Part shown: piece after piece, positions 28,626 to 32,455 of the stretch | Layout of the letters: the number at the start of each line of letters is the position of its first letter | How positions within the stretch are numbered: position 1 is the first letter of the stretch | Origin: Thermoplasmatota archaeon | GTDB lineage: Archaea > Thermoplasmatota > E2 > DHVEG-1 | Length of the DNA: 33,703 bases | NCBI GenBank assembly: GCA_016936135.1 | Contig: JAFGPP010000019.1 | Span: 1-33,703, forward strand | Direction: 5' to 3' | The notes under the pieces: generated by a model | Seen by the model: only the letters and a program-made list of their open reading frames with translations | Database searches by the model: none | Told to the model about the DNA's origin: nothing | Program-made: the position numbers and the translations under genes

Positions 28626-28680
28626 GTATATTTACAACAAAACAGGGCAAATTAGTACTTTCGATATACTTTCCCCCATA

Positions 28681-28689
28681 TTTATAATA
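28681..28689 (+). promoter_or_regulatory. TATA box of the PolB2 operon
   Basis: TTTATAATA predicts transcription from about 28710 and a leader of about 29 nt carrying the GGGGG ribosome binding site at 28731-28735. Confidence 0.6.
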
Positions 28690-28738
28690 TAAAAAAACTG
28701 ATGAAGACATTACTAAGCCATTTTTGATGTGGGGGCAT

Positions 28739-29488
28739 ATGGAAATCAAATTTTCAGCTGACAGTATCAAGAAATATTCCGATGATTCTTTAGTAATAAA
28801 AACTGTGCTAAAACCTGAAATTGTCGTTTCATCAGGCATAGACCAGTTAAACAATCTTAACGGCGGTTTTATAGCAGGAAAAGTAACACTTATTGATGGT
28901 AATAGCCCGATGATCTCAGAAATACCAACACAGTTATGTGTAAACACATATAAGACGTTTCATAGTAGTTCCATATACATCGACGGAGGTACATGTGCAA
29001 ATCCCTATAAAATCGCAAGATACGCAAGGATGATGGAACTAAATCAAAAAAAGACATTAGATCACATCTATATTAGTCGTGCATTCACTGCCCACCAGCT
29101 TTCAACACTTATAAATGAACTGCTTGAACAAGCAATAGAACAATATGCTCCCCTGACATTTGTTATTGGAAATTTTCCTTTTCTTTACCAAGATAATGAC
29201 ATAGAATCTAGAGAAGCATTGACATTGATGTATAACGATTTGAAAAAAATAAGAGAATTAACAACCCGTAATAATCTTATCACTGTACTCACACATATCG
29301 ATAATGGCATGTTCTCAACTGGTCGTAATTTTGATAGTATGCTATGCAAAGATGTTGACGAAGTCATGAAGATAAAACAGCAAAGCAACTTCATTGATGC
29401 ATATCTGGAAAAACAGGGGATTGGGACAAGAATTTTTGCCAGTATATCTAACCAAAAGGGTTTGAACAAATTTGGAATGGTGATTTGA
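28739..29488 (+). CDS. RadA/RecA-like protein lacking Walker motifs
   Basis: From the ATG at 28739 (GGGGG 3-7 nt upstream) the 249-residue protein aligns by eye with archaeal RadA/RadB. SGIDQLNNLNGGFIAGKVTLIDG corresponds to the strand before the P-loop, and SSIYIDGGTCANPYKIARYA plus HIYISRAFTAHQLSTLI match the RadA core blocks. The P-loop itself is DGNSPMISEIPTQ, with no GKT. The Walker B strand is TFVIGNFPFLY, with the Asp replaced by Gly. It should not hydrolyse ATP but may bind RadA or DNA. It opens a four-gene operon ending in a PolB2-like polymerase, the position held by RecA-like ImuA in bacterial mutasome operons. Confidence 0.8.
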   Translation: MEIKFSADSIKKYSDDSLVIKTVLKPEIVVSSGIDQLNNLNGGFIAGKVTLIDGNSPMISEIPTQLCVNTYKTFHSSSIYIDGGTCANPYKIARYARMMELNQKKTLDHIYISRAFTAHQLSTLINELLEQAIEQYAPLTFVIGNFPFLYQDNDIESREALTLMYNDLKKIRELTTRNNLITVLTHIDNGMFSTGRNFDSMLCKDVDEVMKIKQQSNFIDAYLEKQGIGTRIFASISNQKGLNKFGMVI

Positions 29489-29491
29489 CAT

Positions 29492-29740
29492 ATGGGGCGT
29501 ACAGTACCGACATTTCGAAATATTATCGAGTCTTTTGGATATGAATGGAATTCTTTTAAACGGACATTAAGAGGTATAGATAAAGAAGCTTTTGAAGAAT
29601 TACTCAATCATGCAAGACGACATGCCGCAGCCGGAACAAATATAATTACAGCCAATCCATTTGAAACGATTGTCATATCAATTCTTGTCGAACACGAAAA
29701 AACCCTTAGGGAACTGAGGGAAGATGGAAAACACAGGTAG
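29492..29740 (+). CDS. Small conserved-looking protein of the PolB2 operon, 82 residues
   Basis: The protein reads MGRTVPTFRNIIESFGYEWN, then SFKRTLRGIDKEAFEELLNH, then ARRHAAAGTNIITANPFETI, and ends in a charged helix. It is basic and all-helical, with regularly placed arginines that could touch DNA. The GRTVPTFR opening looks like a conserved family signature, but I cannot name a function. It starts 3 nt after the RadA-like stop and overlaps the next gene by 17 nt, so translation is likely coupled. Confidence 0.75.
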   Translation: MGRTVPTFRNIIESFGYEWNSFKRTLRGIDKEAFEELLNHARRHAAAGTNIITANPFETIVISILVEHEKTLRELREDGKHR

Positions 29741-30182
29741 TTGCAAGATCCATTCTTTTTACAGGGAATGGGAACTGACAAAACCCGTGAGCGACTATTT
29801 CAAAAAAGAGGGTTACGTTGTTAAAAAAGAGGTAAAAATCGGTTATTGTCGTGCTGATCTTGTTGCATTTAGAAACGGTATTACTGTAGCTATTGAGTTA
29901 AAACTAGCCGGCTGGAAAAAAGCCATTACTCAAGCAAGAAACTACCAGCTAGGTGCTGATTATGTATACATTGCTTCCCCTTTAATGAAAGTTGACATAT
30001 TTCTTAGAAAAGCAAAGATGTTTATGAAAAATGAAGGGATTGGTCTTTTGGCTATAAATGAGAAAACATGTAATGTGATAAGGATCATCGAACCAAAAAA
30101 ATCAAAAAAGGTACTTGGAAAAATAACGCTTGTAGAATTAGAACGATATCAAAACAGGGAATCAAAGTACCTGCATTTTTAG
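29724..30182 (+). CDS. PD-(D/E)XK nuclease-like protein
   Basis: The 152-residue protein has the core of restriction-endonuclease-like nucleases. VKKEVKIGYCRADLVAFRNG carries Asp45, ITVAIELKLAGWKKAITQARNYQ carries Glu58-x-Lys60, and Gln70-xxx-Tyr74 follows in the next helix, as in Hjc, RecB and Mrr-type folds. YVYIA is the next core strand. All catalytic positions are present, so nuclease activity is plausible. It overlaps the upstream gene by 17 nt and precedes the polymerase by 41 nt, so it probably works on the same DNA substrates. Confidence 0.75.
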   Translation: MENTGSCKIHSFYREWELTKPVSDYFKKEGYVVKKEVKIGYCRADLVAFRNGITVAIELKLAGWKKAITQARNYQLGADYVYIASPLMKVDIFLRKAKMFMKNEGIGLLAINEKTCNVIRIIEPKKSKKVLGKITLVELERYQNRESKYLHF

Positions 30183-30223
30183 TAGAAACTATAATTGACA
30201 CCTGGGGCAAACTTAGTGGAAAT

Positions 30224-32455
30224 ATGATAGAGGGAAATATCATTGATGTTTATCCGGACTATCGTAACAATGTAATGGTTACCTGGTTGATCGGGAAAGG
30301 AAAAGTTAGAAAGATTGTAGATAAATATGAACCGAGTTTTCATATTTATTCAGATAAAAAAGAACTTTACCAAATAGCAGAGATGTTACACGGATTTCCC
30401 CAGTTAAAACAGTTGAATTTCACTTACGAAAAGATAAATCTTGGATCTGAAAACAAGAAACTTGTTTTGGAGGTTATTCCAAAGACCCTTAAATCATTGA
30501 GAAAAATGGCGCATATGGTTGATGCATGGGGCGGATTCCACAAGTATCAATTGTTTAATGTCGATGTTAGATTATCTGGAAGATATCTTCAGCAGGAAGG
30601 TGTGTTTTGTAATGCTTGGGTGAAATGGGATGGAAAGAGATTTTCATCTGTCGAGGGTCAGTGGGATATTGACTACAATCTTCCGGATTTTAAGGTGGTT
30701 AAGTTTGATGTCAAACAAGAACAAATGGCCAGAGGGAATAATTTTAATGGCGCAATCAAAGCAGTTTTGGTAGATGATTGCATAATAGAGAAAGAAAATG
30801 AGGTCGATACGCTAATTTCTGGATTCAGAGAGATACAACATCGCAATCCAGACATAATCTATACAAAAAATGGAGATAGTGTGCTATTTCCGCTTTTATA
30901 CCATCGGGCTCAGTTATATGCAATTAACACGGCGATTAAACTAGGGCGCGATTTTGATTATAAAGATAATGGGTTGCAACCTGTAAAAGATGCAAAGTCA
31001 TACTTTAGTTATGGAAGGATGATATATCGCCCTGCATTTTATATATTAAGAGGCAGAATTCATATTGATATATCAAATTCATTTTTATATGGTGAAAGTG
31101 GACTACGTGGACTCATCGACATTTCCCGATGTTCAAATATTCCTTTACAGTTGATATCACGGTTGGGACCAGGGACAGCCATCAGCCAGATGCAAGTAAA
31201 CAAGGCAATAGAAAAGAGATATCTTATACCGTGGAAAAAAAATATACCGGAACATTGGAAGACAGGTTGGGAACTTTTGACAACCGATCGGGGAGGTTTA
31301 ATACTTGAGCCCGCAGTAGGCATTCACGAAGATGTAGTTGAGATGGATTATGCATCTTTGTATCCAACAATTATGCTTTGCCACAATATTAGTCCTGAAA
31401 CTGTTTTATGTTCATGTTGCCCGGATTCTCCAAATCAAGTTCCACAGTTGGGATACCACATCTGTTATAAAAAAAAGGGAATCATTCCAGAGGTTTTAAA
31501 GCCCATATTGTTTAGACGGTTTTGCTTTAAAGCTAGATCAAGAAACAAAGATTACAACAAGAAAATCTATGAAGAGTTGCAGAACGCATGGAAATGGATT
31601 CTTTTGGTGTGTTTTGGTTATACAGGTTATCGCAACGCACGTTATGGACGTATTGAGTGTCATGAGAGCATCACGGCATTCAGTAGGGATATACTTCTCA
31701 CAGCTATGGAAATTGCTGAAAGAGAAGGTTATGAAGTGCTTCATGGCATTATTGACTCTTTGTGGGTAAAAAACAAACAACAAAAGGTTGTTCCATGGCG
31801 TCTTGCCAGGTTAATTAGCAAGAAAACGGGAATTCGGCTAGAAGTTAAGGGAAGATATCGATGGATTGTATTTCTACCCAGTAAAGATACTGGCATGGGT
31901 GCACTGAATCGCTACTATGGACTATTTGACACAGGCGAAGTAAAAGTTCGCGGCATTGAACTTAGACAGCACAACACACCCACATTTGTTAGAAATGTAC
32001 AGAGAAATATGATTGAGGTACTGTCAAGAGCAAATGATACTGAGGAGTTTTACGATTTGATTCCAGATTGTATTAAAATCATGTGTGAGCATGGACGATA
32101 TCTGTTAAACGGAGATGTTGCCTATGACGATCTTATCATTACTTCCCGCGTTTCAAAAAATGTTTCATTATACAAGGTAAACACCCTTGTAAGTGCTGCC
32201 TTATTACAGTTGAAAGATCAAGGGATATTTCTTGAGCCAGGACAGGTAGTAAGATACGTTGTAAAGGATGAGAATTCATCCTGCTACTATAAGAGGGTTT
32301 GTATAGCAGAAAACCTTTCCAATAACAGGGATTTAGACATTGATTTTTATCTTAGAACAATAGCAAGATGTGGTGAAAGTATCCTCATACCTTTTGGATA
32401 CAAAAAAGAGTATTTTGAGAAAATGCTGTATCAATTGAAATTAGTAAAAAATTAA
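30224..32455 (+). CDS. Divergent family B DNA polymerase, PolB2-like, exonuclease-dead
   Basis: The 743-residue protein has the archaeal PolB layout. The exonuclease residues are lost. ExoI is FDVK (161-164) rather than FDIE, ExoII is NGDSVLFPLL (216-225) with Leu221 for the Asp, and the ExoIII region AISQMQVNKA lacks the Asp. Polymerase motif A is intact (MDYASLYPTIMLCHN, Asp375). Motif B is KWILLVCFGYTGY (Lys457 kept, Asn and Tyr changed). Motif C is HGIIDS instead of YGDTDS, so only the second Asp (Asp511) remains. Asp375 and Asp511 correspond to the metal ligands, so synthesis may still occur. These losses define the archaeal PolB2 class, thought to be accessory or translesion. It is last in the operon. 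Confidence 0.85.
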   Translation: MIEGNIIDVYPDYRNNVMVTWLIGKGKVRKIVDKYEPSFHIYSDKKELYQIAEMLHGFPQLKQLNFTYEKINLGSENKKLVLEVIPKTLKSLRKMAHMVDAWGGFHKYQLFNVDVRLSGRYLQQEGVFCNAWVKWDGKRFSSVEGQWDIDYNLPDFKVVKFDVKQEQMARGNNFNGAIKAVLVDDCIIEKENEVDTLISGFREIQHRNPDIIYTKNGDSVLFPLLYHRAQLYAINTAIKLGRDFDYKDNGLQPVKDAKSYFSYGRMIYRPAFYILRGRIHIDISNSFLYGESGLRGLIDISRCSNIPLQLISRLGPGTAISQMQVNKAIEKRYLIPWKKNIPEHWKTGWELLTTDRGGLILEPAVGIHEDVVEMDYASLYPTIMLCHNISPETVLCSCCPDSPNQVPQLGYHICYKKKGIIPEVLKPILFRRFCFKARSRNKDYNKKIYEELQNAWKWILLVCFGYTGYRNARYGRIECHESITAFSRDILLTAMEIAEREGYEVLHGIIDSLWVKNKQQKVVPWRLARLISKKTGIRLEVKGRYRWIVFLPSKDTGMGALNRYYGLFDTGEVKVRGIELRQHNTPTFVRNVQRNMIEVLSRANDTEEFYDLIPDCIKIMCEHGRYLLNGDVAYDDLIITSRVSKNVSLYKVNTLVSAALLQLKDQGIFLEPGQVVRYVVKDENSSCYYKRVCIAENLSNNRDLDIDFYLRTIARCGESILIPFGYKKEYFEKMLYQLKLVKN

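Follow-up and report, generated by a model that had tools for sequence, protein, structure and literature searches.

The four-gene operon and its mutasome core

Near one end of the 33,703-nucleotide window (contig JAFGPP010000019.1 of a Thermoplasmatota archaeon) lies a run of four co-directional open reading frames (ORFs), in the order iRadA, PPB2, nuclease and PolB2, preceded by two tandem copies of a short promoter box (Table 1). The spacings between the genes are +3, -17 and +41 nucleotides, the nuclease ORF overlapping that of PPB2 by 17 nucleotides, and alternative in-frame starts for iRadA are possible slightly upstream, at 28724 and 28727. A reading of this DNA made from its letters alone (hereafter the sequence-only reading) had described the same four genes and spacings, with which our ORF check agreed, and had proposed examining whether the gene order is conserved. 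Both gene content and order recur among relatives, which establishes the operon beyond chance.

Table 1. Positions of the promoter elements and genes of the operon in the window.
Feature	Position	Strand	Basis or remark
Promoter box, copy 1: GTACTTTC, differing from the family word AATACTTTC at one position	28655..28662	+	box precedes iRadA in all 14 family operons compared
Promoter box, copy 2 (tandem): ATACTTTC	28666..28673	+	ACTTTC in common with Sulfolobus UV-inducible promoters
TATA-like stretch TTTATAATA, 3' of the boxes	28681..28689	+	sequence reading; same layout in 18 promoters
iRadA: RadA/Rad51 fold, Walker A and B residues absent	28739..29488	+	profile matches, predicted fold, motif reading
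PPB2 (arCOG07300): 82 residues, MGRT N-terminal arm	29492..29740	+	ORF, relatives, family profile
PD-(D/E)XK nuclease: 152 residues, E15, D45, E58-x-K60, Q70	29724..30182	+	profiles, alignment, fold
PolB2: 743 residues	30224..32455	+	profiles, alignment, motif reading

The first protein, iRadA, gave RadA/Rad51 profile matches, and its predicted structure (mean predicted local distance difference test score [pLDDT] of 77) matched RadA, Rad51 and Dmc1 at E values of ~1e-14. The Walker A lysine is absent (IDGNSPMIS), as is the Walker B aspartate (FVIGNF). Thus, the sequence-only reading was right to call this a RadA-like protein lacking both Walker motifs, and the outcome that it had named as refuting, a protein with no RecA fold, did not occur. 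The C-terminal QKGLNKFG resembles a PCNA-binding motif; as QxxLxxFG (residues 239–246) it is invariant in seven relatives, and it may bind PCNA. Many PolB2 mutasomes, though not all, have a clamp-binding motif in iRadA or at the C terminus of PolB2. As a separate observation, the host draft genome yielded no full-score RadA gene, the best match being a RadB-sized frame of 234 residues on contig C145, which probably reflects incompleteness.

The 82-residue protein, previously counted among the least explained parts of the operon, turned out to be the known third subunit PPB2. It starts with MGRT, as do its relatives, and a profile built from these relatives recovers the small gene preceding haloarchaeal polB2.

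The polymerase belongs to family B (PF00136, 7e-29). Its exonuclease and active-site motifs, read by alignment to Pfu-type enzymes together with motif reading, show that Exo I has changed from FDIE to FDVK, that Exo II keeps NGD with loss of the catalytic Asp (NGDSVLFP), and that the Exo III Asp is also lost. Motif A (EMDYASLYP) retains its Asp, and motif C (HGIIDSLWV) retains the second. These residues agree with the earlier claim that the exonuclease motifs had been lost while Asp375 and Asp511 were kept, a claim that left unmentioned the loss of the first Asp of the DxD in motif C (IID), which is the hallmark of PolB2. With this motif C and its dead exonuclease the enzyme is of the PolB2 class, as had been suggested, and does not fit the replicative class (PolB1 or PolB3); the other family-B polymerase of the host genome is a separate gene whose motif C reads DTD. 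The D(K/R) motif through which PolB2 contacts PPB2 is not strictly kept, being HIDISNSF in the window and HLDK or HIDR in some relatives.

This three-gene core is the published PolB2 mutasome, and hence not new; the earlier idea of a mutasome-like damage-tolerance module holds for it. The gene association has been described (PMC4104785), and a heteropentamer of iRadA, PPB2 and PolB2 is modelled in PMC11791011. The operon shares with the published system the same three proteins in the same order, the loss of Walker residues in iRadA, the MGRT arm of PPB2, and the IID motif C and dead exonuclease of PolB2. It differs in the PD-(D/E)XK gene, which separates PPB2 from PolB2 here, lies 3' of polB2 in relatives, and is described in the main text of neither paper. 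The bacterial ImuA-ImuB-DnaE2 and Pol V mutasomes likewise pair a RecA/Rad51-family protein with a polymerase for damage tolerance and are controlled by damage, but their polymerase families and accessory proteins differ: in the window the polymerase is of family B, rather than a C-family DnaE2, and the small protein is PPB2, rather than a Y-family-like ImuB. As systems, the two are analogous, not homologous.

The PD-(D/E)XK nuclease and its link to PolB2

The predicted structure of the fourth protein (mean pLDDT 91.7) has a confident PD-(D/E)XK fold and matched XisH, AF2093, SfsA and Hjc structures in Foldseek, and residues E15, D45, E58, K60 and Q70 are invariant among 17 homologs, forming an E-D-ExK-Q site. 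With both the core fold and the catalytic set present, the gene encodes a member of the PD-(D/E)XK superfamily with predicted nuclease activity. The motif is intact, as the sequence-only reading had stated, and the nuclease, one of the two parts that it counted as least explained, still is so. While fold and catalytic set are those of XisH/AF2093/SfsA/Hjc-type proteins, a sequence search for relatives of solved structure returned no significant match, and the context of the window nuclease is PolB2. A match to NCBIfam sce7726 (NF033832) reached 26.8 bits, far below the curated cut-off of 70, and PADLOC gave no match that would identify the nuclease as part of a defence system. PMC11791011 mentions PolB2 operons interspersed with other genes; its main text contains no word starting with "nuclease" and no PDDEXK, and the gene may be listed in its supplement.

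Clear orthologs of the nuclease occur in 11 of 80 genomes of the class (the named relatives are mostly metagenome-assembled Thermoplasmata or Thermoplasmatota), and all 11 also carry PolB2. Within the family of the host (45 genomes), the nuclease is found in 11/20 PolB2-positive genomes versus 0/25 PolB2-negative ones (Fisher p = 1.7e-5, an optimistic value because the genomes are related). The gene keeps close to the mutasome in three arrangements: directly 3' of polB2, often overlapping it, in eight genomes; between PPB2 and PolB2 in the window; and beside PPB2 in two genera where PPB2 has departed from the iRadA-PolB2 locus (one of them shows the PPB2 end only, at a contig edge). Distances between the nucleases track those of PolB2 (mirror-tree r = 0.80; Mantel p = 2e-4), a correlation that chiefly reflects vertical descent of the two together; two close pairs are the same in both trees. 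The ratio of nonsynonymous to synonymous substitution rates (dN/dS) is 0.10–0.18 for the nuclease, pointing to purifying selection. A link between the nuclease and the PolB2 system is supported by this co-occurrence, adjacency and co-evolution and by a promoter box, described below, that the arrangements have in common.

Several observations weigh against a dedicated role. No nuclease was detected in 9 of the 20 PolB2-positive family genomes, and in at least three genera of the family (g3, g13 and g19) the PolB2 operons are readable and lack it; the nuclease is therefore an accessory part, not one essential to the system. More distant homologs in other families do not lie near PolB2. Such absences from operons of the same family, together with the varying position of the gene and the occurrence of the wider nuclease family on its own elsewhere, are what one would expect of a passenger, such as a nuclease of restriction-like or homing type, that landed in the operon and plays no role in PolB2 function. 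We consider a passenger distinctly unlikely, given that no PolB2-negative genome has an ortholog, that the relocated gene travels with PPB2 or PolB2, that its distances track those of PolB2, and that the detached units retain the same promoter box. A viral origin was rejected as well, tblastn having found no match in viral contigs or phage records.

Across the phylum, distant nuclease homologs co-occur with PolB2 in 31 of 33 genomes, a count that we set aside as main evidence because these homologs lie elsewhere in the genome and the families are not independent. In one other family (f14; L160 and L164) they sit immediately 3' of a mutL-like gene, a hint that the nuclease family at large may be connected with mismatch repair. 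Genus g20 carries a second, larger RecB/Cas4-like PD-(D/E)XK gene, recognized by eye, near its PolB2-nuclease unit (L044:3837-4874 and L047:6769-7965). SRAP-like genes (MCYRxS start, also named by eye) stand beside the PolB2 operons of six relatives (L035, L038, L042, L043, L045 and L050); none was found in the window's own genome.

The promoter box and its occurrence upstream of uvrA

We compared the 180 nucleotides preceding iRadA across 14 genomes of the family. The best word, TAATACTTTC, is present in 14/14 with at most one mismatch, while the best word in shuffled sequences reaches 6–7. When separated units and one more operon are counted, a AATACTTTC-like box stands at all 18 promoters examined, 75–93 nucleotides 5' of the start codon and mostly followed by a T/A-rich TATA-like stretch; a nineteenth operon (genome G002) has an exact copy at L036:5423. 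The box is present at a detached PPB2-nuclease unit in one genome and at detached PolB2-nuclease units in two. Its presence at these separated pieces is the strongest argument for placing the nuclease in the same response.

The box also occurs before the repair gene uvrA. A scan of four genomes found box plus TATA upstream of uvrA in one, and within the family ATACTTTC precedes uvrA in 13/28 genomes and TACTTTC does so in 15, where shuffled sequences predict 0.2 and 0.5, respectively. ATACTTTC before uvrA is in the sense orientation in 13 genomes and antisense in 3. At PolB2 loci of other families in the phylum, ACTTTC lies upstream in 18/44, often at -55 to -72, versus 2.5 expected, with its reverse complement in one of the same 44. 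Among haloarchaeal promoters, ACTTTC falls within 150 nucleotides of the first gene in 6/12, but only four copies lie at -57 to -63, three of them from Halobaculum, so that this occurrence is suggestive only.

In Sulfolobus acidocaldarius, the upsE promoter needs the hexamer ACTTTC to be active, and ANTTTC marks promoters induced by ultraviolet (UV) light (PMC5817253); in S. islandicus, ANTTTC is bound by Orc1-2 (PMC9738581). Our box resembles this Sulfolobales element (ACTTTC in upsE and upsA) in its hexamer, in its sense orientation upstream of the B recognition element (BRE) and TATA, and in preceding both a PolB2-type operon and a repair gene. It differs in being extended to AATACTTTC, in lying somewhat farther from TATA, and in belonging to another phylum. 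A search of the papers available found no description of such an element outside Sulfolobales, which is weak evidence of novelty. We regard the box as a plausible, putative damage-response element like that of Sulfolobales.

Some of the data speak against such a role. The box is short, the promoters that carry it are related by descent rather than independent, the box with TATA is about as frequent across the genome as in the control, and the uvrA of the window's own genome lacks an exact ATACTTTC copy. A hexamer of this length, recurring at promoters of common descent with no genome-wide excess, might be a general core-promoter part or an accident of the lineage, unrelated to damage control. 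We think this improbable: one would expect a core element to be enriched across the genome, and the box is not; it stands before detached units of the system and before uvrA, mostly in the sense orientation; and its hexamer recurs in the PolB2 loci of several families. The genome-wide counts did lead us to reject the box as a marker of a broad regulon. In one genome (G001, L189), a box-plus-TATA match lies 69 nucleotides before a topoisomerase VI subunit B-like gene, which may be chance.

Proposed function and genome setting

Taken together, these data make it likely that the window contains a PolB2 mutasome operon with a lineage-specific PD-(D/E)XK fourth component, switched on by DNA damage. 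In such a scheme, damage would activate the promoter via the ACTTTC box, perhaps through an Orc1-2-like regulator. iRadA, PPB2 and PolB2 would then assemble as in the published model, and iRadA might tether the complex to PCNA by its QxxLxxFG tail. Lacking proofreading, PolB2 would extend mispaired or lesion-opposed primer ends, as has been shown for Sulfolobus Dpo2 (PMC8764526). The nuclease would act on the DNA intermediates of this extension, most likely as a structure-specific endonuclease clearing flaps, branches or unextendable ends; this is the least certain step, and we offer it as a tentative possibility. The suggestion of the sequence-only reading that the nuclease prepares or trims ends is likewise a guess.

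The nuclease might alternatively belong to the same damage response and work in a pathway apart from the mutasome, for instance excision repair or recombination, the two having only transcription in common. Recombination employs small PD-(D/E)XK enzymes, Hjc for one, and Hjc is among the weak Foldseek matches of our nuclease; the presence of the same box upstream of uvrA likewise favours a pathway of its own. On the other hand, the tight linkage to PPB2 or PolB2 and the absence from PolB2-less genomes suggest a closer tie than shared induction, and we regard a separate pathway as rather doubtful.

Overall, the core of the system is known, the accessory nuclease is new, and the regulatory element, with its plausible link to the damage response of Sulfolobales, was unexpected. 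If a nuclease is indeed tied to an extender polymerase that lacks proofreading, translesion machines would gain a new part, and the pairing could reveal how they obtain clean ends for extension. To our knowledge, DNA-damage sensing and response in archaea outside Sulfolobales are largely unknown, and the box common to PolB2 operons, their detached pieces and uvrA offers a concrete cis element that matches one from a distant archaeal phylum. Holding both parts at once, namely a dedicated mutasome nuclease in one Thermoplasmata lineage and ACTTTC control of PolB2 operons and uvrA in Thermoplasmatota (perhaps also of some haloarchaeal PolB2 operons) as in Sulfolobales, is a more speculative proposal, which we consider possible without favouring it. 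If true, it would mean that an SOS-like regulon is conserved across archaeal phyla.

The host draft genome comprises 153 contigs and totals 1.71 Mb. Upstream of the operon lie aminotransferases, a GPR1/FUN34/YaaH-type membrane protein and an AMP-binding enzyme, and downstream a beta-helix protein; the neighbours tested were all ordinary. An apparently split PolB2 in one relative (G034; L048 and L049), with pieces 65 kb apart that each end in a run of N, was dismissed as a scaffolding artefact; a contig of another genome (G066) breaks at almost the same polB2 codon. Finally, a PolB2 mutasome is carried by a bacteriophage: by profile match, the Leptospira phage vB_LbrZ_5399-LE1 (L255, KF114879.1, 56344-63577) encodes a complete iRadA-PPB2-PolB2 set.

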